Positions 1-23,957 of a DNA stretch of 24,012 nucleotides are shown here, in pieces. The DNA is from a virus: positions 1 through 24,012 of IMG/VR virus record IMGVR_UViG_3300048034_000523; one strand, written 5' to 3'. A model generated the notes under the pieces. The model made no database searches. It had not been told where the DNA came from and saw nothing but the letters and a program-made list of their open reading frames with translations. Numbering within the stretch: position 1 is the stretch's first letter; the number at the start of each line of letters is the position of its first letter. Made by a program: the position numbers and the translations under genes.

Positions 1-3000
1 TTAAATCTTGCAGCTACAGCTTCGTCATCAAAAGTTTCACCTGTTCCAATTCCAACAGTAATATTTGTATAATCAACAGTTTGATATCCCCAAGTTGCTC
101 CGCGGAATTCTCTTGCGGCTGGTAAATCTCCGTTTGTTGAAACAAACCCTGGGTGACTTGCTATAATACTTGCTTCAATTCTATAGTTAGTAGTTGAGTC
201 AAAATCTGGCACCAAGTCCGTACCTGGAATAATATGATCCCAACCTGCTGTACCGTCTGATTCTTTTGTTACTGTTACATCTCTAGTTACACTATCAAAT
301 ACGTTAAGCTGTGCATATTGTCCTGCACCTCGACCACTTGTAATAATAACACGCATGCCTTGCACATCTGCTGTAAATTGTGTTGGATCGTTAGCATTCA
401 AACGTATTCTATCTGATGCATCAACTGTAATTTGTGCGCTACTTGCTATAACTTTAAATCCACTTCCGCCTTCAGTACCTGAACCTTTAGTATTAATAAG
501 TCTTGGCTCATGGACGCCGCCATCTCTAAAATCAACATATTCTACTGTTGCGTCATCACCTGCACCAACAATAGTTGCTGTAGCTTCTGTGTATTGTTCG
601 CCAGTATGCGAATATTGGAATAAGAATAATTCATCTGCAGATCCGCCTGCAAATGCACTTTCAACAATAGCTTCGTTTACTCTGTTGTTTACTGTTCCTG
701 CATCTGGAGTTTCTAGAGGATCGTTGCCGTCTGACACAGCACCAAAACTTCCGTATGAGTTGTTACCGTTTGTAGCACGTATCACTCCGCCGCTTTCTGC
801 TAGATATCCAACTGCACAATAGTACGTAAACACTGACACAAGCTCAGCTCGTGCATTGTTTAATATGTGTGCGCCAATACCATCACTTAGTACTTGTGTA
901 AAGTCATTTGATGTCATTGACTTGTTACCGCCATTGTGTAAAGCACCGTCTACTTTTTTACCATAACAACGTTCACCGATGTTTGTAACACCTTGAATGT
1001 AAGGTGATCTGTTAGCAATCCAAACTCTTTCATCTGCTGGTCCCCAACCTGGATCAAGTGCAACACATGCACCACCTGTTGGTCTTTGATAAATGTCGTA
1101 AACTCCTGGAGGATTCAATCCGCCAGTTAGTCCTTCAATAGTCATTTGACGCAAGCCTGTTGTATCTCTTACTAAGAACATGTCTGTTGTACCAGAACCT
1201 GTTATAGCTCTTGCATATCTGTTAGCTGCGTTTATTGTTCCGTATGTTCCTGGGTATTTTAAATCTCTTATCATTGCACGTATGAAACTTTGCACATCAT
1301 TTCTAATACGCAGAAGGTCACCGTCAAAATCTGGGAATACTGTTCTAATATATCCAAAACAATCTTGCACAATATATTCTTTATTTTGCTCTATAATAGC
1401 TGCAGAATTTACTAACCCTTCGTCAGTACTTAAAGTATTAGTACCACTCATTGTAGGATTTGTAGCACCACTTGCAGAAATAAATTGAATTCTATTAAAA
1501 TAATCTAATTTTCTTGCACCCATTAAAACAAAAGCATCGTTTGATCCAACTGGTAAATTTCTTTTTTGTTCAATTGGATTTCCGCTTTGTGAATCTATTT
1601 CTTGGTTCAAAACTAGTTTTTGTGATATGCCTAAAAAGTGCGAAATAATATTATTATGAAAGGCTGTATCGTCTTGATACGCTGCAATTGGTCCTGTGGC
1701 TGCAATAGTTGTTGCACGAAGTTCATCTCCCATTACAACACAACCTGCTGGAATAGCAATTGGACCTATCTCTTCAAATCTTCCTGCTGACACAGCTACC
1801 TTAGTTGGTACTAGAGGATTAAAATTATCTTCGATCCATTCACACGCATGTCTTACTGTGCGGAATGGTGTTTCAGGTTCTCTACCATATGTGTCTTGGT
1901 CTTTACCATTTAATCCTACATACACAACTTGGTTTTCAAAATCTCTATTACGCCAAAATACTTCTTGTTCTGCTGTAACACTTAAAATTTGATTTGTTTC
2001 ACCAATTGGTACTCTTGCATCGCCAAGTGTACTATCGTCTTCGTAATTGTCTTTTCTCCAAGCACCATAAGTTATCAAATCACCCTTTGTTGTAAGTGCT
2101 GCTTGCTGTCCTGCTTGTACAGTTAAATCCCAATAGTTGTATATACCTACAGCAAAATCACCTGGAGCTTTTTCAAAGTCTGATGCATGTTCAAAGTTAC
2201 AAGTGTATGTACTTCCTAGATAATAAACTACATCGCCTCTTGAATAGTAAGTATTTGTTTTCCAGTTAGCTTTCCATCTTTGTCCTTTTGCAAGTAAGTT
2301 CCATACTTCTGGATCAAGGTCAGTACTTGCACTATCTTTACCGTCTTGTAAACCTACATCTCTTACTGCCTCATATAAATAACCACCACGTTGTACAATA
2401 TCACCTGCTTGATATTCGCTTCCTAATACCCAGTCACCTGCAAAATCGTTACTCTTGGCTAGTACTCTCCAGTTAATAGTCGAGTCGCCACCTAAATCTT
2501 GTGATACAACTTTTCCTTGTGCGTCTAGCACTGTAACTAAACTAGGCTGACTGTCTTGGTTGTTGTTTATAGCACTATATAAAAATCCGCCATATCTTAC
2601 AATATCACCAACGGAGTAAACAGAAAGTGAATCCCACTCATTTTTAAATCCTGTACCCGGAAATGTAATTGTAAAGTTTGTATTATCAATTGCATTGCCT
2701 GCAGAAGTGTGCGTAGTATTACATTCGTATATTGCGCCACCATATGAAACTTGATCATTTACTCTGTATAATGTATTTGTTAACCAAGCACTGCGCCATT
2801 CTTTTCCTGGATGGAAAATATCCCAGCAATTAAAACTAGGATTAGCACTTATATTATCTTCAAGTGTTGCGCCTGCATCGTGTGCTAGTTTACAACGATA
2901 TACAATACCGTTATATCTTACTAATGCGCCTTCTCCATAACCTGTACCAGAAACCCATGGACCAACAAAGTCTATTCCGTCTCCAAAATCTTCCCATTTG

Positions 3001-3347
3001 CTTGTTTGATCTGCAAAGTTAGTTGAAGTGTGTGGTTTTATACATAAATGTAATTTACCATTGAATAAAACTATTTCACCAGGTATATACTCTACGCCAA
3101 TTTCATAATCGCCGCTAAACGTTTTACTACTGGTCATTACAATCCAGTATGGTGCTGGAGCTGGAGGATTTGATCCTGGTAATATTCTAGCTAGATCTGT
3201 TCCGAATTCTGTACTTGAAGTATGACTTACAATACAAACATAACTTTTACCACCATTATAAACAACATCATCTTTTAAGTATTCTGTACTTAGAGCCCAT
3301 TGCCCTTTCCACGTATACTTAAATCTATCTAACTTAAACTCTGCCAT
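1..3347 (-). CDS. Giant tail fibre/adhesin-like protein with repeated carbohydrate-binding-like modules (C-terminus cut by window edge)
   Basis: The frame is open from an ATG at 3347 to base 1, giving at least 1115 codons, so the C-terminus is outside the window. The start lies 1 nt after the stop of the upstream gene and has AGGA just upstream (GATAGGATACTAATATG). Residues about 13-410 hold about seven tandem modules of roughly 50 residues, each with a W, then Y-x-x-G-D-x-V-x-Y-x-G-x-x-Y-x-C and often H-T-S. This resembles small chitin/carbohydrate-binding modules of the CBM5/12 type. From about residue 474 a second part starts with VVYVGLNGKD and PFRTVRHACEW, the style of right-handed beta-helix (pectin-lyase-like) phage proteins, and later contains NRSPYIQGVTNIG, shared in style with the two paralogues nearby. 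The likely role is an external virion protein that binds host surface sugars. The module family and role are inferred from pattern only. Confidence 0.85.
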   Translation of the reverse strand, partial: MAEFKLDRFKYTWKGQWALSTEYLKDDVVYNGGKSYVCIVSHTSSTEFGTDLARILPGSNPPAPAPYWIVMTSSKTFSGDYEIGVEYIPGEIVLFNGKLHLCIKPHTSTNFADQTSKWEDFGDGIDFVGPWVSGTGYGEGALVRYNGIVYRCKLAHDAGATLEDNISANPSFNCWDIFHPGKEWRSAWLTNTLYRVNDQVSYGGAIYECNTTHTSAGNAIDNTNFTITFPGTGFKNEWDSLSVYSVGDIVRYGGFLYSAINNNQDSQPSLVTVLDAQGKVVSQDLGGDSTINWRVLAKSNDFAGDWVLGSEYQAGDIVQRGGYLYEAVRDVGLQDGKDSASTDLDPEVWNLLAKGQRWKANWKTNTYYSRGDVVYYLGSTYTCNFEHASDFEKAPGDFAVGIYNYWDLTVQAGQQAALTTKGDLITYGAWRKDNYEDDSTLGDARVPIGETNQILSVTAEQEVFWRNRDFENQVVYVGLNGKDQDTYGREPETPFRTVRHACEWIEDNFNPLVPTKVAVSAGRFEEIGPIAIPAGCVVMGDELRATTIAATGPIAAYQDDTAFHNNIISHFLGISQKLVLNQEIDSQSGNPIEQKRNLPVGSNDAFVLMGARKLDYFNRIQFISASGATNPTMSGTNTLSTDEGLVNSAAIIEQNKEYIVQDCFGYIRTVFPDFDGDLLRIRNDVQSFIRAMIRDLKYPGTYGTINAANRYARAITGSGTTDMFLVRDTTGLRQMTIEGLTGGLNPPGVYDIYQRPTGGACVALDPGWGPADERVWIANRSPYIQGVTNIGERCYGKKVDGALHNGGNKSMTSNDFTQVLSDGIGAHILNNARAELVSVFTYYCAVGYLAESGGVIRATNGNNSYGSFGAVSDGNDPLETPDAGTVNNRVNEAIVESAFAGGSADELFLFQYSHTGEQYTEATATIVGAGDDATVEYVDFRDGGVHEPRLINTKGSGTEGGSGFKVIASSAQITVDASDRIRLNANDPTQFTADVQGMRVIITSGRGAGQYAQLNVFDSVTRDVTVTKESDGTAGWDHIIPGTDLVPDFDSTTNYRIEASIIASHPGFVSTNGDLPAAREFRGATWGYQTVDYTNITVGIGTGETFDDEAVAARF

Positions 3348-3348
3348 A

Positions 3349-3783
3349 TTAGTATCCTATCTTTTCACTGCTCGATTGTGTAAGCACGTTTTCATCGTTA
3401 CCTTCTCCATAAGCCGGAGAACTGTTTTTGTCTGGGTAAGTATATGCTTCTGAAATTCTTTGTACAAAAAATCCTGTTTCTTCTTCAATGTAATATAATA
3501 AACTTCTATTTTCCCACTTGAACTGTTGATAACGTAAGTTTGGATATAATTGTTCATGATCAATATCAATACCATCAAGGAAGTCAATACCTTCTTCAAA
3601 GTCCGGATAGTTTTCTGATGCAATACCAAGATCGTTAACAATGACAACATTTTCTTGTCCAAGACGTAACTGGTCTAATTGCTGTAAAAACAATTCTCCA
3701 TCTTCGTTTCTGCGTAGTCCGTAAAAGTATCTTTTGATAAATCCTGCTGCTACGTCTGTTGGTGTTGTTCCTATATAATACAT
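3349..3783 (-). CDS. Hypothetical tail-module protein, 144 aa
   Basis: I do not recognise a family with certainty. The protein is rich in aromatic and acidic residues (MYYIGTTPTD..., GIDFLDGIDID, a Tyr-rich C-terminal half) with no signal peptide or membrane segment. Its ATG overlaps the stop of the 109-residue gene by one base (TAATG), and its own stop is 1 nt before the giant adhesin gene, so it is probably translated by coupling within one tail operon. The context suggests a small structural or assembly partner of the neighbouring adhesins. A second frame inside it (3357-3662) is a shadow. Confidence 0.8.
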   Translation of the reverse strand: MYYIGTTPTDVAAGFIKRYFYGLRRNEDGELFLQQLDQLRLGQENVVIVNDLGIASENYPDFEEGIDFLDGIDIDHEQLYPNLRYQQFKWENRSLLYYIEEETGFFVQRISEAYTYPDKNSSPAYGEGNDENVLTQSSSEKIGY

Positions 3784-4122: not shown

Positions 4123-7100
4123 TTATCCCATAAATAAAACATTTTCAATTGCAATGTTTGTTGCGTCGATCGAACTAACCGCTCCGCTCAAACCTGCTAC
4201 ACTAGTCCATATACTACCATCAAAAACTTCAACTCTTAGATCAGCTGTGTTAAAACGTATCATGCCTATTTCAGGCGTTGCTGGTCTATTTAATGATGTT
4301 CCTACTGGTATAACTAATCCGTATGATCCGTCGAATTTATAATACGCATTAACTCCAGTTTTTTGGAACTCCATTATGCCTTGAGGTACTGTATGTGTTA
4401 TAGTGTTGTCCTTGATAGAAAAATTATCAATTACAACTGAGCCTGTTCCGTTGGGTGATAAAACTAAGTCTAAATCTCCCGACGTAGTATTTATCACATT
4501 GCCGTCTATGCGGATATTATCTATCTCAATTTGATTTGCATTAAATCCGTTGGTATCTACACTAAAAACTACATCATTTTTAACATAAAATCTAATTATA
4601 TCGTCGTTTGCGCCTTCTGTCAATTCAGCTGTGATTCTAGTATCTCCGTTGAGATCCTCAACACCTTTTAGATTAAACCAATTAGTTCCATTAAATCCTT
4701 CAAATCTTGCTAATTCGCTATTGTAACGCAGTTCCCCTGCTACTCCGCTTGTTCGTTGCGCTGTTGTTCCTGTTGGAAGTTTAATTGCTCCAGATGAATT
4801 AAAATTAATTAATTCTGAGCCAGCGTCAAATACCATATCACCTGTAGTTGAAATGTTATTTGTTTCAAATGTAAATCCTTCAGCTACAACACTACCTGTT
4901 CCGTTTGCACGTAATTCTAAATCTGCATCTGATGATGTAGTTGTAATTACATTTGTATTAATATTAACATCATCAACTTGTAGTTCTGATACCCAAAGTT
5001 TTGACCAAGTATTTGTATTTGTTCCTAAACTAAATGTACTTGTACTACTTGGTACTAGGTTACTATTAATACCTGCTACAATTTCTATACTATCTGTACC
5101 TTCATCACCAATAGTAATATTTCCGCCAATAGTTACGTCACCGCTAACATCTAAGTTACCAGTAATGTCAACATTGTCTAATAGATTAATTGCTCCGCTA
5201 CTACTATTAAGATTAATATCACCTACAGTACTTGATAATGTATTTCCAGTTAGTCTTAAATTTCCAACATCAATGCGTGATCCGTTTATAAAACTAGTAT
5301 CTCCGCCTGTTGTAAATGTTGCACCTGTTGTTAAGTCAACAGTAAGTGCATTTGCTGTGAAACTAACTGTACCGTCATCTTGGTTTACATAAAATAATTC
5401 ACCAACTCTAAAATCACCTTTATGGTCAACTGAGTTGTATCTTACTTTTGCGTTGTTTAATTCAACTACTTCGTTTGCTTGAATAACTGTTCCTGGATCG
5501 TTAGTAACTTCTTTTCCGTTACCAATGTATGCCAAGTTTTGTCCAATTGCATATACAATAATACCCGGACCGTCTCCGTAAATACCAAAGTTACCATATA
5601 CACATGCAGAACCAATCATTCTTATTTCTGCACCAAAGTCTGCTAAATCTACATTTTCTATTACTGTTGCTGTTGCACCTGCGCCGTTTGAAATACTTTG
5701 CGGAGTTGTGTCAAACCCAATAAAGTTTGTATTCTTCCCGTCAATAACAAGTATATCATTATCAACACTTTCAACTGTCACAGTTTCAACAGTACTTGCA
5801 TCAGTTGATGTAAATGTAACTGTATCAGCAGCATTAAATGTGCCTGTTATTCCACTAAGTCTAATACGTGTTTTACCATCGCCTTTTAAACCTGTTGCAC
5901 CGTCAAGTGCGTGTATTCCTTTATTAGCAAAATATGTAAATGAGTTTAGCCATTCTATTCTCACACCGTTTGTTGCTGTAAGAGCATCAACTCCAGGTGT
6001 TATAAATGTAACACTGTGGAACAACATACTTGCTTCTTTACTTGATGCATTTGCTACTGATCCGTCAGCTAGAATACCTCTACCAGCATCTCCTTGATTG
6101 AACCCTCTTGGATCTTCTGCTGTTGTTACACTACCTGCTGTAATAACTGTAATATTTTTTACGTAAGGTGACCTTGACGTAACTGTAATATTGTTTGCAA
6201 ATCTAAATGCATAACCCGGACTAAAAAATCCTGATACTGTTAAATCTTCAACTGTTGTTTCACCGTTAAGTAATATAGCATCATTAGTATTTGTACCTGC
6301 TGTTGGTTGTATTGTAACTGATCTAATACCAGCACCTTTAAGTGTAACACCAACTGGTACTGTTAAAGGAAAAACTTCAGTGTACACTCCTGGTGTAATA
6401 TAAACTGTATCGCCTGCTGTTGCTAAACTTAATCCTTGTTTAATAGTTGCAACAGGATCCTGAGGATGTGTCCCTGAATGTGTATCGTCGCCGTTTTCAC
6501 TTACATAAATTAAATTGCCTTGTCTAAGAGTAAGATCTATTCCACTTACAAATAAATCAGTTGTGTTTATTTGTCCAGTAAATAAAGTTTGTGCATGAAC
6601 CTCGCTCCATATTTTTCCTACTTCACCTATACTAAAAGTATCAGTTTGGTCAGGAATAAGATCGCTTCCTATTTCTGCATTAATTGTTATGCTATCAGTA
6701 TCAGCATCACCAATTACAATGTCGCCGTCTGCAGAAATATTACCAGTAGCATGTATATTACCTGTAACATTCATATCTGAATGTACATGAACTTCACCTG
6801 TGCCGTTTGGTCTAAATTCTAAATTTGAATGTGAATCGTTGGTGCTTATTACATTACCTTGAATGTCAATGCCGTCAATTCTTGCTTTGTTTTGGTAAAC
6901 AATGTTATCAAGAGTACCTAAGTTTAAATATTGTTCTGAGGTACTGATTGTATTACCAGTTATATTAATATTTGCTATGTCTAAATTATTGTCAACATTA
7001 ATATTAGTACTTCTCATTGTACCAGTAATGTCTAAATCGTATTGGGGAGATGAGTTCTTAACACCAATGCGCTGATTATTTACATCTAGATATAAAAGAT

Positions 7101-7179
7101 CTGTTTCAAAAGCTAAATCTATTCCATTTCGGATTAGATTCGATTTAAGTAACGGACCCGATATGCGACCTACAGCCAT
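4123..7179 (-). CDS. Large tail fibre-like structural protein with central pectin-lyase-like domain, 1018 aa
   Basis: It starts MAVGRISGPLL, nearly the same as the next upstream gene, and is clearly its paralogue. Residues 1-220 are fibre-like repeats (G-N-x-I-x-T, F-x-x-N-G-T-G-x-V). Residues about 223-600 form a right-handed beta-helix type region starting with LIYVSENGDD, with ITPGVYTEVFPL and TSRSPYVKNI. The C-terminal third returns to fibre repeats and ends with two copies of the phage motif in which a G-T-x-x-x-R turn leads to I/L-R-Y/F-N-T/S and a final W (ELRYNSELARFEGFNGTNW; MIRFNTADLRVEVFDG). Relative to its paralogue it has an insert of about 75 residues (431-512). The ribosome site is strong (AAGGAG 6 nt before ATG). 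The likely role is a virion adhesin; whether the beta-helix has enzymatic activity cannot be told from sequence. Confidence 0.9.
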   Translation of the reverse strand: MAVGRISGPLLKSNLIRNGIDLAFETDLLYLDVNNQRIGVKNSSPQYDLDITGTMRSTNINVDNNLDIANINITGNTISTSEQYLNLGTLDNIVYQNKARIDGIDIQGNVISTNDSHSNLEFRPNGTGEVHVHSDMNVTGNIHATGNISADGDIVIGDADTDSITINAEIGSDLIPDQTDTFSIGEVGKIWSEVHAQTLFTGQINTTDLFVSGIDLTLRQGNLIYVSENGDDTHSGTHPQDPVATIKQGLSLATAGDTVYITPGVYTEVFPLTVPVGVTLKGAGIRSVTIQPTAGTNTNDAILLNGETTVEDLTVSGFFSPGYAFRFANNITVTSRSPYVKNITVITAGSVTTAEDPRGFNQGDAGRGILADGSVANASSKEASMLFHSVTFITPGVDALTATNGVRIEWLNSFTYFANKGIHALDGATGLKGDGKTRIRLSGITGTFNAADTVTFTSTDASTVETVTVESVDNDILVIDGKNTNFIGFDTTPQSISNGAGATATVIENVDLADFGAEIRMIGSACVYGNFGIYGDGPGIIVYAIGQNLAYIGNGKEVTNDPGTVIQANEVVELNNAKVRYNSVDHKGDFRVGELFYVNQDDGTVSFTANALTVDLTTGATFTTGGDTSFINGSRIDVGNLRLTGNTLSSTVGDINLNSSSGAINLLDNVDITGNLDVSGDVTIGGNITIGDEGTDSIEIVAGINSNLVPSSTSTFSLGTNTNTWSKLWVSELQVDDVNINTNVITTTSSDADLELRANGTGSVVAEGFTFETNNISTTGDMVFDAGSELINFNSSGAIKLPTGTTAQRTSGVAGELRYNSELARFEGFNGTNWFNLKGVEDLNGDTRITAELTEGANDDIIRFYVKNDVVFSVDTNGFNANQIEIDNIRIDGNVINTTSGDLDLVLSPNGTGSVVIDNFSIKDNTITHTVPQGIMEFQKTGVNAYYKFDGSYGLVIPVGTSLNRPATPEIGMIRFNTADLRVEVFDGSIWTSVAGLSGAVSSIDATNIAIENVLFMG

Positions 7180-7324: not shown

Positions 7325-10246
7325 TTATCCTAGTACAATGGACCAAATATTAACCTGATCTTCTTGATACTCTATAGTAACACTTTCGCCAGCACCTGTA
7401 GCCGGAATCCATTCCTGGAATTCACCTTCTTTGTTGTCTACTCCAGCATAAACTTCTAGAGCTTTTACATCTGCTCTAGCATTAAATCTAGTATCACCCG
7501 TTTGTGGATTAGGACCTCTAGTGTCATTGCCACCGCTTGGCATAACAATTCCAGATGCGCCTCTAAATGCAAAATACCCGTCATCTGTTACAAATGTCAT
7601 AGGGCCGCCGTCGGTAATTTCTAAAATATTATTTTTTATTTTTAAATCTTTTTGTATAAATTTACCATCACCGTGCATAGCAAATTGTAAATTACTATTT
7701 GATACTTCTGTTGAAATAGTGTTGCCATCTAGCTTTATATCATCTACACTAAGAGCTCCAAATAAGATACTGTCGCCTGTTATATCTGCCATTAATGTAG
7801 AAGAATCTATTGCATCTACTGCTCCGTTTACTATAAATCTAATATTGTTTGATGTAGGATCAGCTGTTACGCTAGTTAGTCTGTTTGATGAAAATACACC
7901 ATTAAATGTAATTGGTGCATTAACAGTTTGGCCTTCAAACCTATTTGAATCTGTACTGTACCTAATTGATCCTATTCCTGGTGCTCCGGTTGAATCAGCG
8001 TTGATTCTTTGACCGTCTGTACCTGCAGGCAATTTAATTGATCCTGTAGTTGCTATGTTAAAATTAGTATTTGTAGTAAAATTTAAATCATCAGCTCTAG
8101 TAAAAAGTTTATTTTCATCTACAGCTATATCTTCTAATAATACCGCGCCAGTGCTTTGAGCTCTAAATTCTAAATCGTTATTTGTTTCAGTAGTTGTTAT
8201 AAAATTATCTTGTATTAAAACATCATCAGATTGTGCTGCACTTAACCAAGCCTTTTTCCAAGTCTTACTTGCAAGTCCTAAACTATATGCTCCACTAATG
8301 TCTGGTACGATATTTTGATCAATTTCTTGTGCAAAACTAATTGTATCATTAGCATCATTACCAAATCCTATTGCACTGCCGCCGATTGTAAAATCTCCTG
8401 ACATTACAACATTACCAGTAACATTTGTATTGTCTAAAAAGTTTATTATTCCTGCTGCACTATCAACATTAATACTTCCTGGACTACTAAACAATGTATT
8501 ATTTGTGATTATAAGATTGCCTGTTGATGCTTGTGCGCCGTTTAAAATACTTGTAGATCCACCAGTTGTAACATTAATACCATTAAGTGCATTTACTTGT
8601 GCTTCTGTAATAACAATACTTGATTCGCCGCTTTCTAAGTCAACAAAAAATTGATCACCAACTCTAAAGTTACCTAAATGGTCAGTTGATGAAAAATAAA
8701 TATTTCCACTGTTAAGCTCACTTGTTTCTTGAGCTTGTATTGCTCTACTTGGATCATTGTCTAAGAATTTACCACTTCCGATATATCCAAAGTTGTGTTG
8801 TATTAGATACATAATAGTATCTGCACCGTCAGCTACTGCTCCGTAATTTCCGTAAACATTTGCTGAACCTATTGATCTAATTTCAGCTCCAAATTGTGTT
8901 GTTGATCCGTCTGTACTTAAATGACCAGTTACTCCTCTAACAGCATATAATCCTCTGTTAGCAAAGTATGTAAAAGAATTAAGCCATTCAACTCTAACAC
9001 CATTTGTCATTGTAATTGCATCAACTCCAGGTGTGATAAATGTAACGCTATGGAATAGCATGCTTGCTTCTTGACTAGCACTTAAAACATTTGCTCCGTC
9101 AACTAATGCGCCTTTACCTGCATCGCCTTGTGCAAAGCCTCTAGGATCGCTTGCACTTGTTACACTGCCTGCTGTAATTACTGATACGTTTTGTACATAG
9201 GGAGATCTCGAGGTTACTACTGTATCTGTTGCAAAACTAAATGCATGCCCTGGACTAAAGAAATCTTTTATAGTAACATGTTGGACTGTTGTTTCGCCAT
9301 TCATTAAGAAACAGTTATTTGTATTTGTTCCTGCTGTTGGTTTAATAATAACACCACGCATGTTATGTCCAACTATACTTACGTTAGTTGGTATTTCTAA
9401 AGGAAATATTTCTTCGTATTCTCCAGGAAATATATGTATTTCAACTGGTCCTTGTGTACTTGCATCAGCTCTTGCTAGTGCCGCTTTAATAGTAAGCATA
9501 GGACCTTGTACACTGTCGCCTACTGCTGAATCGTTTCCGTTTTTACTAACATAAAATATATTACCAACACGTAAGTTCATACTCGCTGTGCCAGCGATAA
9601 TATCACCAGAATTTATTACTTGACCATTAACAACACCAGGATGAATTTCTCCAAAACGTTTTCCAGCCTTGCCTAATTTCAAGGTATTATTTGTGCCTGG
9701 ATTTAGATCATTAGTCATTTCTGCGTTTAAAACTAATGTATCTTCATCATCACTACCTATTGTAATATTACCATCAAAAGTAATGTTAGATTGTGAATGT
9801 AAACTTCCAAATAATTCTAAATTAGTAGGTATTTCTGTTGTACCTGTGCCGTTTGGTCTTAGATCAATATTTGAATTTGTATTATAACTTTTAATACTAT
9901 TATCATTAATTTCAATTTGATCTGTTGCGAACCCTGATAGATTTATTCTTCCGCCAACAGCTGCTTGTAATACTATTGGCGAGTCTAAGGAATTAATATT
10001 ACTTCCGTTTCCCCAAATTAAATTACCAATCTTTAATTCTGTAGATGCAATCATGCTAGGCATTTGAGACATGCCTGATACTTGTATTTCGTCTGTAGTT
10101 ACATCAGTATTAAACCCTAATTTAAGTGCTGTTGCATCTAAATGAAGGAGAGATGTATCACTTAATGTATTTTTAACATTTAAGTTAATTCCGTTACGTT
10201 CAAGATTAGCTGCTAATAACGGTCCAGATATTCTACCTACTGCCAT
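7325..10246 (-). CDS. Large tail fibre-like structural protein with central pectin-lyase-like domain, 973 aa
   Basis: This is the paralogue of the following 1018-residue protein, sharing the N-terminus MAVGRISGPLL and long matching blocks in the centre (MLFHSVTFITPGVDA; WLNSFTYFAN; DPRGFxQGDAG). Residues 1-225 are fibre-like repeats with NGTGT turns. From about residue 229 a beta-helix type region begins (IFYVSKNGND, then IHIFPGEYEEIFPLEIP) and runs to about 560. The remainder is fibre repeats, with a short GTDGQR...GSIRYSTDSNRFEG motif near residue 770. The C-terminus (EWIPATGAGESVTIEY...) is unlike the paralogue's, so the two may differ in binding target. AAGGAG lies 6 nt before the ATG. 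It is probably a virion adhesin on the tail or baseplate periphery. Confidence 0.9.
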   Translation of the reverse strand: MAVGRISGPLLAANLERNGINLNVKNTLSDTSLLHLDATALKLGFNTDVTTDEIQVSGMSQMPSMIASTELKIGNLIWGNGSNINSLDSPIVLQAAVGGRINLSGFATDQIEINDNSIKSYNTNSNIDLRPNGTGTTEIPTNLELFGSLHSQSNITFDGNITIGSDDEDTLVLNAEMTNDLNPGTNNTLKLGKAGKRFGEIHPGVVNGQVINSGDIIAGTASMNLRVGNIFYVSKNGNDSAVGDSVQGPMLTIKAALARADASTQGPVEIHIFPGEYEEIFPLEIPTNVSIVGHNMRGVIIKPTAGTNTNNCFLMNGETTVQHVTIKDFFSPGHAFSFATDTVVTSRSPYVQNVSVITAGSVTSASDPRGFAQGDAGKGALVDGANVLSASQEASMLFHSVTFITPGVDAITMTNGVRVEWLNSFTYFANRGLYAVRGVTGHLSTDGSTTQFGAEIRSIGSANVYGNYGAVADGADTIMYLIQHNFGYIGSGKFLDNDPSRAIQAQETSELNSGNIYFSSTDHLGNFRVGDQFFVDLESGESSIVITEAQVNALNGINVTTGGSTSILNGAQASTGNLIITNNTLFSSPGSINVDSAAGIINFLDNTNVTGNVVMSGDFTIGGSAIGFGNDANDTISFAQEIDQNIVPDISGAYSLGLASKTWKKAWLSAAQSDDVLIQDNFITTTETNNDLEFRAQSTGAVLLEDIAVDENKLFTRADDLNFTTNTNFNIATTGSIKLPAGTDGQRINADSTGAPGIGSIRYSTDSNRFEGQTVNAPITFNGVFSSNRLTSVTADPTSNNIRFIVNGAVDAIDSSTLMADITGDSILFGALSVDDIKLDGNTISTEVSNSNLQFAMHGDGKFIQKDLKIKNNILEITDGGPMTFVTDDGYFAFRGASGIVMPSGGNDTRGPNPQTGDTRFNARADVKALEVYAGVDNKEGEFQEWIPATGAGESVTIEYQEDQVNIWSIVLG

Positions 10247-11158: not shown

Positions 11159-12214
11159 TTAAAAGAGCATTCCGAACAGTAGTGCTCTATTTCTACTTAC
11201 TAATTCGTCTGTTACATTGTTTTTATTTACATAATACAAACCAACATTACCTTCGCTGTTGGCGGTATCTTTTGAAAATAATTTAATTCCACTAACAGGC
11301 GCTGCCGGACTAGCTGATAAGTCATCGTCAAATGGTGACCCGGTCATTACAAACGTATCTTTTACTGTAACTGATCCTGTTCCTGGCGCTGATAAAAATA
11401 AATTATCATCTGATATTGTAGTTGATATTTCATTTTTTTGTATTTTTAAATCTGCTAGTTCTAATCTATTAGAGTATATATTTGCAATTAGCGTGTTGTC
11501 GACTTTTACTTCAATTGTACTTTCTATACCTGTTGTAGATTCATCTAATGCTCTTAATGTTGTATCATTATCAGCAATACCCGGTTGTAGTGTATTTGAA
11601 AAAGCATATGTTACATAATCTTTAACACCTTTTGCATTAACCAATCCATCATTGTTTATTAATACATTACCGCTTCCAGGATCGGTAATAATAAAATCGT
11701 TTGCAACAGCATTAAATGCATATTCAAAAATATTACGTTCGTAGTTTACTGTACCGCTAACATCAATACTTGCTGCAGGAGTTGTAATATATAACACTCC
11801 TTCTGCGTTTATACTATTTGTTGTAAATGGTAAAGTTGTTCCGGTTGCATCTTGTAATTTAAATGCTCCATTACCACTTGTTCCGCCTGTAAAATATTGT
11901 GTTTGTTCATTGAAAACAATTCTTGCTGTAGGCAGTGATCCTCTATCAACTTCTATACCTGCAATATACCCATTACTAGCACTAATTCCTGCTGCAGACT
12001 CGCCTTCATTTAACGTAATAATATTGTCTGCAATAGTTGTAACTGTTGACTCAACTGTTGTTTGTGTTCCTCTAACTTCAAGATCACCATTGACAATAAC
12101 AGTTCCTTGAACAGCAGAAGCACCGTCAGTAGTGTCTAGAGTAATAGTACCTGATGCACCATTACTAACTGCAATTTTATAATTGCCTCCGGTTACTTTA
12201 TCTATCTTTGACAT
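11159..12214 (-). CDS. Fibre-like tail structural protein, 351 aa
   Basis: The N-terminal region has the beta-solenoid style found in many phage virion proteins (VNGDLEVRGTQTTVESTVTT, then IADNIITLNEGE). A repeat of the type L-x-I-x-x-N-x-I-x-T-T-x-S-D-x-N-L-x-L-x-x-x-G-T-G-S-V (residues about 250-282) is shared with the giant fibre-like proteins downstream. The ATG lies 3 nt after the upstream stop with AGGGA as ribosome site. It is likely a tail fibre or baseplate-attached structural protein; I cannot assign a T4 counterpart. Confidence 0.85.
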   Translation of the reverse strand: MSKIDKVTGGNYKIAVSNGASGTITLDTTDGASAVQGTVIVNGDLEVRGTQTTVESTVTTIADNIITLNEGESAAGISASNGYIAGIEVDRGSLPTARIVFNEQTQYFTGGTSGNGAFKLQDATGTTLPFTTNSINAEGVLYITTPAASIDVSGTVNYERNIFEYAFNAVANDFIITDPGSGNVLINNDGLVNAKGVKDYVTYAFSNTLQPGIADNDTTLRALDESTTGIESTIEVKVDNTLIANIYSNRLELADLKIQKNEISTTISDDNLFLSAPGTGSVTVKDTFVMTGSPFDDDLSASPAAPVSGIKLFSKDTANSEGNVGLYYVNKNNVTDELVSRNRALLFGMLF

Positions 12215-12217
12215 TTA

Positions 12218-12580
12218 CTATTTCCCTGTTAACATTAATACATTTGTTGTTGAGTCATTGTGTATGTCCCAACTATATTCACTGTTATTAAAATCTATCA
12301 TTAAGTTATTAACAATTGAAGCAATATAAACAAATGCTGAACTATGTAATACAATACCTATTAGTGACATTTCATTGTCATCTAAATCGTTTGTACTTTT
12401 ATTAACTAGTTCGCATACTCCTTCATTTCCTTTATTATCAGTAACTTTAAATTTTGTATCGCTAAGTTGCTCTAAAACACTACCATGCGGTGTTGCCTTA
12501 GAGCTTCCTAGTTTTACAGAAACGACCAAATCTTTTAGAAGATTATAAAAATTCCAAAAAACATTTACTGGTCGTTCCAT
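12218..12580 (-). CDS. Hypothetical virion-module protein, 120 aa
   Basis: I do not recognise the family. The protein begins MERPVNVFWNFYNLLKDLVV, has a short segment VTDNKGNEGVCELV typical of beta structure, and a hydrophobic centre (SLIGIVLHSSAFVYIASIV) that looks buried rather than membrane-spanning. AAGGA overlaps the stop of the previous gene. Being packed between virion genes, it is probably a small structural or assembly protein. Confidence 0.75.
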   Translation of the reverse strand: MERPVNVFWNFYNLLKDLVVSVKLGSSKATPHGSVLEQLSDTKFKVTDNKGNEGVCELVNKSTNDLDDNEMSLIGIVLHSSAFVYIASIVNNLMIDFNNSEYSWDIHNDSTTNVLMLTGK

Positions 12581-13716: not shown

Positions 13717-14088
13717 TTATTTAGTATCTAGTACTTGAATAAATTCGTTTTCTCTGTCCAAATATTTAAAGTCAATCTTTACTGGATCAAACTTATCTAA
13801 CGCATCAAATACTATTCGTGTGTCTAACTCTCCACAAGTATAGACGTCTAATTGTATTAGTTTTGGAGATTGTTCGTCCCATATGTGTATTGCTACATGT
13901 GATGTTTCAATGATGGTAACGCAAGTAAATCCTTTGTTACCTTTCATATCACAATACTTAACATAAGGTCCCATCATAATCTTCATACCAATGTCTCTAA
14001 TTAAATTAGAGGCCCAATCAGTAATAGTTTGTTCGCATATTGGAGGATTACTTACTTCTGCTCGTACTATTAAATGTTTATGTTTCAT
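13717..14088 (-). CDS. speD: S-adenosylmethionine decarboxylase proenzyme-like protein
   Basis: The 123-residue length fits the prokaryotic class 1B AdoMet decarboxylase. The enzyme makes decarboxylated AdoMet, the aminopropyl donor for spermidine. The pyruvoyl-forming region reads ETSHVAIHIWDE, giving Ser63 (pyruvoyl precursor) and His68 at the same numbers as in the Thermotoga enzyme. The catalytic Cys is in DVYTCGELD at Cys85, two residues later than usual. The residue before Ser63 is Thr, not the usual Glu; I believe phage versions share this. speD is a known auxiliary metabolic gene of marine T4-like cyanophages. Here it follows gp23 and its terminator and has its own sigma70-type promoter, with almost no leader and no clear ribosome site. 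Expected action: cytoplasmic, during infection. Confidence 0.9.
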   Translation of the reverse strand: MKHKHLIVRAEVSNPPICEQTITDWASNLIRDIGMKIMMGPYVKYCDMKGNKGFTCVTIIETSHVAIHIWDEQSPKLIQLDVYTCGELDTRIVFDALDKFDPVKIDFKYLDRENEFIQVLDTK

Positions 14089-17137: not shown

Positions 17138-18100
17138 TTAAGAACCGATAGTTGATTTACTATCTGCTCCGCTTTCGCCTGCGCCTTTTTTCTCTGCGCC
17201 GTGGCCTTTTGGCTGTGCTTTCATGCTTTTTGATGCTTTGCCGCCTGGAACGTTAACATTACCAGCTGTTTCATCTTTTGGAGATGTTCCTGCTAGTCCG
17301 CCTTCTGTTCCGCCGTTTCCGCCGTCTGCATTCTGCGCCAAGTTTGAAGCAGTTCCGCCCATGTCATTTGCACTAGCTACAGTTGACTTAGTGTTTGCAC
17401 CGTTGTCGCCCATTTTAGCTGTTACTTTTTCAACATATTCACGCATTGTTTCTGCTTCTGATTTAGATGATTCATCAGTTTCTTCGTCTGCTGCTTCATC
17501 TACTTCTTCATCTGATGCTTCGTCGACTTCTTCGTCAGTTGCTTCAAACGCTACTGATTCTTCTTCAGCTTCGTCGTCACCGTCAGCGTCCATATCCATG
17601 TCGCCTTCGTCACCAGCATCTTCGTCTTCGTCACCCATCATTTTTTCAAATTCTGCTTTAAGATCATCTAAAGCAACTTCTAGATCGTCAACACGATCTT
17701 CTACGTCACCTTCGCCACCTTCAGCATCCATATCCATATCCATGTCGCCGCCTTCTGCGTCACCGTCCATGTCCATGCCCATTTTGTCCATCATGTCATC
17801 AGCTGGATCGCCACCTTCAACTTCAAACTCATCTAAGTTAAAGTCTTCGTTAGTAGCTTCTTCTTTGTCATCATCTGATGCTTCATCTACTTCTTCGTCT
17901 GATGCTTCATCTACTTCTTCGTCTGATGCTTCATCTACTTCTTCATCTGTAGTTTCATCAACTTCTAGATCTGACTCTAATAGTCCTTCGTAGATATCTC
18001 TTGATTTTTCAACCACAATCTCGTGGAATAATTCTTCTGCTCCAGCTTTGTCTTCGTTGACTAGCTTTTCGAGCATTTCTTCAAATTTATTACTCGCCAT
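17138..18100 (-). CDS. Acidic prohead core protein (gp67/gp68-like position), 320 aa
   Basis: The N-terminus (FEEMLEKLVNEDKAGAEELF, then HEIVVEKSRDIYEGLLESD) is a short helical domain found in marine T4-like prohead core proteins. The rest is extreme low complexity. An acidic block of D-E-E-V-D-E-A-S repeats occurs at residues about 49-78 and again about 190-210, with Met/Asp-rich runs (MDMDMDAEGG) between, one predicted helix (VEDRVDDLEVALDDLKAEFEK) and a Gly/Ala/Lys/Ser C-terminus. Position directly before gp21 and after gp20 matches T4 genes 67/68, which are core proteins removed by gp21. The assignment rests on position and composition; it is much longer than T4 gp67 (80) or gp68 (141). 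Confidence 0.75.
   Translation of the reverse strand: MASNKFEEMLEKLVNEDKAGAEELFHEIVVEKSRDIYEGLLESDLEVDETTDEEVDEASDEEVDEASDEEVDEASDDDKEEATNEDFNLDEFEVEGGDPADDMMDKMGMDMDGDAEGGDMDMDMDAEGGEGDVEDRVDDLEVALDDLKAEFEKMMGDEDEDAGDEGDMDMDADGDDEAEEESVAFEATDEEVDEASDEEVDEAADEETDESSKSEAETMREYVEKVTAKMGDNGANTKSTVASANDMGGTASNLAQNADGGNGGTEGGLAGTSPKDETAGNVNVPGGKASKSMKAQPKGHGAEKKGAGESGADSKSTIGS
17874..17945. repeat. Three tandem 24-bp repeats in the acidic core gene
   Basis: The unit tctgatgcttcatctacttc + ttcg occurs three times in a row at 17874, 17898 and 17922, the last with one changed base. It encodes DEEVDEAS on the minus strand. Degenerate copies occur at about 17470-17545. Confidence 0.9.
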
Positions 18101-23090: not shown

Positions 23091-23957
23091 ATGAGTAGTT
23101 TTCTTCAAGATTATAAAAGACAGCCTAAATTATTTATTGACTTGCCTAGCCAAGGTCATTTCTATGATCACACAGTAATAGCTGATAATAAGTTTTCTTC
23201 AATACCTGTTTTTGGTATGAACGCTATGGATGAGATACTATTTAAAACACCTGATGCATTATTTACAGGCAATGCAACAGCAGAAGTCATAAAAAGTTGT
23301 ATACCAGACATTACAGATCCTTGGAAATTAGTAGGTTTTGATATTGACTATATCTTAGTAGCAATACGTATTGCTACATATACTGACGATCTTCCTGTCA
23401 AAACAACTTGCCCTAGTTGTAGTAATGACAATGATAGTATTCTTAGTTTAACATCTTTAATTGAAAATTTTAATAATTACAAAATTGAAAATAATTTTAA
23501 AATTGACGATCTTACTTTTAAACTAAAGCCGTTGACTTACAAACAAATGTCAGATATTGCTATTGAAAATTATACCTTAGAAAGACAAATTATACAAATT
23601 GCTAAAAATAAAGATTTTACAGATAATCAAAGAGACAACGAAACTCAAAAAATATATAATAAAATGAACGAGTTAAATCTTAGCACTGCTGTATTATACA
23701 TTCAATCAATCGATAATAGTGCAAATACTGAAACTGATGCACAATTAATTAAAGATTTTATTTCAACAAATGATACTAGATTTTATAAAGAATTAAAAGA
23801 AAATATTTTTGATTTAAGTAATCAGTGGAAGTTACCTAACTTAGAAGTAGTGTGTGGCGCAGAAGAGTGTGGACACAAATATAAGTCACAAATCGATCTG
23901 GACTACTCAAATTTTTTCGGACTACAATTCTTACACTCGAGGAATCTGATCAATTAA
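23091..23957 (+). CDS. gp26: Baseplate hub protein/assembly chaperone, T4 gp26-like, zero-frame product
   Basis: The N-terminus (LFIDLPSQGHFYD; SIPVFGMNAMDEILFKTPDA; SCIPDITDPWKLVGFDIDYI) is highly typical of the T4 baseplate gp26-like family of marine phages. In T4, gp26 takes part in building the baseplate hub. A likely zinc site is formed by C107-x-x-C110 and C255-x4-C260-x-H262. AAGGA lies 6 nt before ATG. At 288 residues it is longer than T4 gp26 (208). The gene ends in the sequence A AAT TTT TTC, after which the -1 frame is open; a longer frameshift product is likely. It is the only gene here on the plus strand. Confidence 0.9.
   Translation: MSSFLQDYKRQPKLFIDLPSQGHFYDHTVIADNKFSSIPVFGMNAMDEILFKTPDALFTGNATAEVIKSCIPDITDPWKLVGFDIDYILVAIRIATYTDDLPVKTTCPSCSNDNDSILSLTSLIENFNNYKIENNFKIDDLTFKLKPLTYKQMSDIAIENYTLERQIIQIAKNKDFTDNQRDNETQKIYNKMNELNLSTAVLYIQSIDNSANTETDAQLIKDFISTNDTRFYKELKENIFDLSNQWKLPNLEVVCGAEECGHKYKSQIDLDYSNFFGLQFLHSRNLIN
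23909..23915 (+). promoter_or_regulatory. Candidate -1 ribosomal frameshift slippery site
   Basis: In the gp26-like frame the codons are TCA AAT TTT TTC, giving the heptamer A AAT TTT, a canonical X-XXY-YYZ slippery site, at Asn274-Phe275. The zero-frame stop follows 40 nt later (23955). The -1 frame has a stop at 23882-23884, then stays open to the window end with no ATG, GTG or TTG start. Confidence 0.6.

Follow-up and report, generated by a model that had tools for sequence, protein, structure and literature searches.

Seven CBM5/12-type beads at the N-terminus of a viral tail-fibre protein: a candidate virion-proximal arm

The fibre gene and its neighbourhood

The window, by which we mean the whole stretch of DNA analysed (24,012 nt, IMG/VR record IMGVR_UViG_3300048034_000523), is a 24 kb virus record whose minus strand carries T4-like genes for head proteins: a gp23-like capsid protein, a gp20-like portal and a prohead protease. 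A tail-fibre gene on the same strand runs into the window edge (Table 1). Its ORF matches phrog_9851 (phage tail fiber) with an E-value of 5.4e-99, the best stretch being residues 150-890, and the near-identical contigs L002, L003 and L010, which show a 100% match to it in the best segment, carry the full fibre protein of 1858 aa. A first-pass annotation, made from the sequence alone, had called the protein a giant adhesin; this is its size. Host recognition by way of sugar binding is not supported by the results given below. The fibre part that follows the array and its linker may form a beta-helix. Beyond the window, the distal fibre of L003 contains STDG..W repeats of about 45 aa, as judged by eye (11481-12320, residues 1161-1440), which resemble a beta-propeller but have only weak Pfam matches (DUF6242, BNR).

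A counterpart of the small phrog_8997 ORF was found directly upstream of the fibre gene in 74 of the 75 loci with enough upstream DNA, and only L075 has no such gene detectable there. P-SSM2, S-BM3 and S-CAM3 likewise have a similar small protein ahead of the fibre, and these three proteins are also seeds of the profile that was used for the search.

Further along the window, two adjoining long proteins (4123-7179 and 7325-10246) have the common start MAVGRISGPLL and share their matches to PHROG baseplate-wedge families; they look like the result of an old gene duplication. A gene for S-adenosylmethionine decarboxylase (13717-14088; PF02675, 1.6e-13) lies amid the structural genes. Next to the prohead protease is a very acidic protein (17138-18100) in which EEVDEASDE blocks recur, and there the G+C content rises locally to 0.44. 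Near 23.0 kb the coding strand switches and G+C drops to 0.28; a plus-strand gene with a match to T4_baseplate follows (23091-23957; PF12322).

Table 1. The fibre gene, its segments and the upstream ORF in the window.
Feature	Residues	Position	Strand	Remarks
Tail-fibre gene		3..3347	-	1115 aa in window; 3' end cut by window edge
N-terminal peptide MAEFKLDRFK		3318..3347	-	precedes bead 1; close variants in each homologue read
Bead 1	11-73	3129..3317	-	Cys/His type; most conserved bead; Phe at ChiA1 Trp687 place
Bead 2	75-123	2979..3125	-	Cys/His type
Bead 3	125-179	2811..2975	-	Cys/His type; ligand place mostly Leu-Glu-Asp
Bead 4	182-230	2658..2804	-	Cys/His type
Bead 5	232-298	2454..2654	-	without Cys/His
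Bead 6	300-354	2286..2450	-	without Cys/His; V.RGG signature
Bead 7	356-410	2118..2282	-	terminal bead; Phe/Tyr-Pro-Gly-Asp in most relatives
Linker with GDL..YG		1938..2117	-	closes array family-wide; sequence comparison by eye
Remaining fibre in window		3..1937	-	similar to tail-fibre family phrog_9851
Small ORF, phrog_8997		3349..3783	-	directly upstream of fibre gene

Seven beads with a predicted CBM5/12 fold

The first-pass annotation had reported about seven tandem modules at the start of the fibre protein and had guessed at the CBM5/12 family, suggesting a structure prediction as a check. Both points hold. Pfam CBM_5_12 (PF02839) matches the whole ORF in seven stretches with an E-value of 1.8e-43 and 146.7 bits (curated cut-off 26.2); on residues 1-430 alone the value is 7.7e-47, with five stretches above the stricter cut-off applied there. 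A bead profile, trained partly on these same beads, scored 39.9-51.2 bits on the seven beads, while the top score among 1000 shuffled proteins was 8.9 bits. It places the bead cores at residues 11-45, 75-109, 125-159, 182-216, 232-266, 300-334 and 356-390. With the closing strands included, the beads extend from 2118 to 3317, which slightly shifts the earlier limits of 2130-3320. The unit that had been described (W, Y-x-x-G-D-x-V-x-Y-x-G-x-x-Y-x-C and H-T-S) is indeed repeated, but neither the Cys nor the HTS is present in beads 5 and 6. Tandem Repeats Finder detected no DNA repeat in the array region, which indicates that the units are old and agrees with the remark that they differ from each other in a way not expected of recent duplicates.

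An AlphaFold2 model of residues 1-430 (27 sequences; mean pLDDT 81.3, pTM 0.56) is a run of beta beads. Among solved structures, the model is best matched, in bead 7, by the CBM12 of a Vibrio chitin-oligosaccharide deacetylase (4nz4; Z 8.7, rmsd 1.1 over 48 residues), followed by ChiC (Z 7.2) and the chitin-binding domain (ChBD) of ChiA1 (1ed7; Z 5.7, rmsd 1.6 over 44 residues). PDB sequence searches with the beads led to the same families. By profile and by predicted structure, the beads are thus of the CBM5/12 fold. In the literature on CBM modules of phages, cyanophages and pelagiphages, judged by titles or the beginnings of abstracts, we did not recognise this array, which is not to claim that it is unpublished.

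Bead number and order in related phages

The comparison comprised 79 proteins (78 loci and the window), of which two (L064, L072) were excluded as truncated at the 5' end. Exactly seven beads were counted in 76 of the 77 relatives with a complete start, using a profile for which these very proteins had been the training set. The exception is L075 (3035-7837), an outlier homologue of 1600 aa with eight beads. Bead 1 starts at residue 11 in all 77 save L075 (residue 12), and also in eight cyanophage and pelagiphage homologues. A nonredundant set of 34 was drawn from the 76 seven-bead proteins and hence does not contain L075. Beads at the same position have a mean identity of 40-59%, versus 26-39% between positions, and in 5806 of 7854 comparisons the best match is a bead from the same position, where 14% would be expected. 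Recent tandem duplication was rejected, since identity at the same position exceeds that within a protein and there is no DNA repeat. With a near-constant count, an own signature for each position and a fixed start, the array does not duplicate freely.

The 'tail fiber-like' proteins of T4-GC_296 (P-SSM2, S-SSM7, S-CAM1, S-CAM3, S-BM3) and the fibre of Pelagibacter phage Mosig share the homologous N-terminus, the bead order and the linker, and the cyanophages of this group have a related small gene upstream, as in the window. They differ in bead number: among the named records, the cyanophage homologues have five beads and Mosig has six, against seven here. S-BM3 encodes the array on its own, in a 297-aa protein that lacks the remainder of the fibre. 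The S-BM3 array gene in L086 (6001-6894) is directly followed by a gene of over 6 kb. Bead counts were extended to contigs of both clades, where the protein start was located by a motif that was lacking in 5 of 96 loci. In the cyanophage clade, all 15 complete arrays have five beads (L104, which is cut, shows 4), while the 75 proteins of the Mosig clade have five (49 proteins), six (17) or seven beads (9). The module count in related phages, for which the first-pass annotation had asked, is therefore fixed in the clade of the window and in the cyanophage clade, but a fixed count is not a general rule as it fails in the Mosig clade.

Per-position profiles, which were run on the named records and, as shown, on seven of 91 contig proteins, assign a bead of the bead-1 type, one to three Cys/His beads, two beads resembling beads 5 and 6, and a terminal bead. 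This suggests that the shorter arrays have the same bead order and that the Cys/His beads are the part which grows; we only infer the common order, since the score differences between profiles are in some cases small and profile 7 is not the best-scoring one for the terminal bead of the other clades.

It might be argued that the beads are a plain spacer, which sets the reach and flexibility of the fibre and neither docks to anything nor binds sugar. Changes by whole beads in the Mosig clade would fit, as would the long inserts that are tolerated between several bead pairs. However, an own signature for each position and a count constant in 76 of 77 proteins are more than a spacer needs, and we consider this explanation very unlikely.

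The dN/dS ratio of the array is 0.07-0.09 against five close relatives (L004-L008), similar to the rest of the gene; values for L009, L011 and L012 were not used because synonymous change is near saturation. The array is under purifying selection, and the low ratio led us to reject diversifying selection by hosts. In the earlier annotation, the divergence between units had been taken as a sign of kept binding ability; it reflects, instead, old beads that are specific to their positions and evolve under purifying selection. Averaged over all pairs, identity is 0.43 in the array, 0.51 in residues 425-900, 0.37 in 1201-1500 and 0.56 in 1501-1858. The array thus does not stand out by its conservation, nor is the C-terminal end hypervariable, which argues against a simple picture of a conserved base and a variable tip.

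Core motif and sugar-binding site

The core of the ChiA1 ChBD is described as consisting of Trp656, Tyr662, Val668, Tyr670, Tyr675, Cys677, Leu695 and Trp696, while Trp687 is located on the surface and is assigned the major role in ligand binding (PMC3701571). His681, Thr682, Pro689 and Pro693 have been named as further putative chitin contacts (PMC2265269). The core residues match W...Y..GD.V.Y.G..Y.C, so that the motif noticed in the first pass corresponds to the hydrophobic core and not to the sugar site. In the 238 beads of the 34 nonredundant proteins, the columns corresponding to ChiA1 W656, Y662, V668, Y670, Y675 and C677 hold W 213, Y 234, V 213, Y 122, Y 167 and C 165 times, respectively, the Y670 column being mixed. 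The closing W (ChiA1 W696) is present in most beads, with the exception of bead 4 (5 of 34 in the stretch examined). Cys and His occur together in 157 beads, neither is found in 62 and one alone in 19. Nearly all beads at positions 1-4 and 7 retain the His equivalent to His681; beads 5 and 6 form the pair that has neither Cys nor His, and they also lack the His-Thr.

The CBM12s of the Vibrio deacetylases (4nz4, 3wx7) and the Bacillus circulans ChiA1 ChBD (1ed7) share fold, core motif and His-Thr motif with the phage beads. They differ six residues past the His, which is the place of residue 687 in the register of 1ed7 (residues 655-699): ChiA1 and, in the alignments, the Vibrio domains have a Trp, whereas a Phe, Tyr or Leu, or no aromatic residue at all, is found there in the phage beads, nearly always in place of the Trp. 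A Trp within two residues of this place was found in only 2 of the 238 beads, and in 2 of 532 when all 76 proteins are considered. These counts are anchored on the Cys; a count anchored on the His gave 0 but omitted the beads without His, and the Cys-position counts of that analysis are unreliable due to a loose pattern. Judged by these alignments, the surface Trp that is mainly responsible for chitin binding by known CBM12s is almost absent from the phage beads. An aromatic residue near this place is nevertheless found in bead 1 (34 of 34, always Phe), bead 2 (32 of 34; 30 Phe, 2 Trp) and bead 7 (33 of 34, Phe or Tyr), while the place is non-aromatic in 26 (bead 3), 19 (bead 4), 26 (bead 5) and 30 (bead 6) of the 34 proteins.

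The main rival to a connector arm is a true multivalent glycan binder, as had been proposed in the first pass, where Phe and Tyr of beads 1, 2 and 7 would stack on sugars and weak sites would add up by avidity on the host envelope. The family and fold, the equivalents of His681 and Thr682 and the aromatic residues just described agree with this proposal. It has to contend with the near-absence of the Trp, with two beads that have no site at all, and with the placement of bead 1 at the extreme N-terminus in every homologue. Host recognition by a sugar-binding array, as originally put forward, is not supported by these findings, and we rate glycan binding as possible but rather unlikely. One might also think of decayed remnants of a former sugar-binding array that are functionless now. 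The near-loss of the main ligand Trp would be expected in that case, but with purifying selection, a preserved fold core and a fixed count it is hardly credible.

Similar beads in solved tails

The array model also matches parts of solved phage and contractile injection system (CIS) proteins, with Z-scores of 5.9-7.3 that are below 8, the line below which the tool advises caution with a 'middling' match. In Milano gp124 the match (residues 75-118, Z 6.5) lies within residues 1-175, which are reported as the N-terminal tail-binding module (PMC10811340). In the long tail fibre of phage 7-7-1 the match (residues 73-118, Z 5.9, with a sequence match of E 2.6e-4) lies within residues 1-120, which anchor the fibre to the baseplate according to PMC12796354. 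Residues 36-93 of Cis13 from the Anabaena CIS (Z 6.1) belong to a fibre-like protein with N-terminal domains that are described as binding to the baseplate (PMC8894136). Head domain D2 of CBA120 TSP1 has the fold of the ChiA1 ChBD, and its authors state that polysaccharide binding by such head domains had never been reported (PMC3966878). The array begins right at the N-terminus of its protein, and in solved fibres that have such a bead this end attaches to the virion; at middling Z-scores, these cases point towards a virion-proximal reading. Counter-examples are the Pam1 tailspike (7eea, Z 5.5), where the bead is in the receptor-binding domain, and the A-1(L) chain 8kec_a (Z 7.3), a match not assigned to a named fibre. 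For the neck fibre of A-1(L), a distal carbohydrate-binding module of unstated CBM family is reported to fail to bind the host (PMC10966104), which speaks against the glycan binder.

Milano gp124, the 7-7-1 long tail fibre and domain D2 of CBA120 TSP1 resemble our array in being small N-terminal beads of CBM12 fold on fibres or spikes of contractile tails. They differ in having only one or two beads, and they are trimeric. CBA120 TSP4 and domains XD2-XD3 of T4 gp10, in which beads near the N-terminus dock other trimeric proteins, provide a functional analogy only, since their fold is a beta-jellyroll and not CBM12. Chains of T4 gp10 and CBA120 were absent among the fold-search matches listed, though they may be present further down.

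A proposed virion-proximal connector and docking arm

We consider it probable, if only just, that the array, a chain of beads of CBM12 fold, serves as a virion-proximal connector and docking arm. The fibre would belong to a T4-like marine myovirus, and the array would form its virion-proximal arm: a chain in set order with one capping bead, three Cys/His beads, two beads without Cys/His and one terminal bead on a linker. This chain would anchor the fibre to the baseplate or neck and set its length, while the faces of the beads may dock partner proteins such as the small upstream protein, and we regard the phrog_8997 protein as a candidate for this role. Host recognition would then reside in the distal fibre or in inserted domains. 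The fixed start, the seven-bead count, the position signatures, the array-only protein of S-BM3, the loss of the Trp and the purifying selection all support a connector arm. Weighing against it are the variable counts in the Mosig clade, the aromatic residues and the His kept at the site in beads 1, 2 and 7, the Pam1 bead, the A-1(L) chain, Z-scores below 8 and an array conserved no better than the remaining fibre.

Phage proteins with CBM5/12 matches are easily taken for sugar-binding receptor proteins. In the case described here, the fold core accounts for the match, and the Trp chiefly used for ligand binding is nearly gone. Should the connector arm be correct, annotating tail fibres of marine phages as carbohydrate-binding may direct attention to the wrong fibre end. 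The bead order also offers a concrete system for studying fibre anchoring and the addition of domains.

Domains inserted between beads

Relatives of the window fibre carry inserts of 150-300 aa between beads 3 and 4, 5 and 6, or 6 and 7. The insert of L041 (residues 172-322, locus 8514-8966) is a predicted cupredoxin-like domain with the His, Cys, His and Met of a type-1 copper site, and matching inserts occur in L042, L043, L050, L054, L055, L056, L063, L067 and L076. The L041 insert was modelled from 11 sequences with a pLDDT of 89.6 and a pTM of 0.85. Rusticyanin is its best match in Foldseek (E 3.8e-3, none being below 0.001), and in VIA it matches domains of copper nitrite reductase and laccase (Z 8.8-8.0). 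Pfam gave no match above chance for this domain, and PDB sequences gave a single weak match to a ribokinase (E 0.045). A Cys-x2-His-x2-Met-Gly motif is kept in ten proteins, together with an upstream His-Pro in those of the set that are aligned, while the ligands have been lost in the copies of L045 and L065. Copper binding by the inserted domain is a prediction from these models.

A more far-reaching version of the connector arm would be a modular assembly arm. It would have a conserved frame (the cap, the two beads without Cys/His and the terminal bead) and a growable Cys/His block, the bead faces would dock different receptor proteins, and the joints would take up plug-in domains including the predicted blue-copper cupredoxin. 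We consider this extended version unlikely, but if it were true, the cupredoxin domains would bring a redox or metal-binding function to a phage fibre.

YHYH and concanavalin-like domains are mentioned for structural genes of pelagimyophages (PMC7029224), and the insert described here may or may not be among them. According to PHROGs, the inserted domain is found in baseplate and fibre families.
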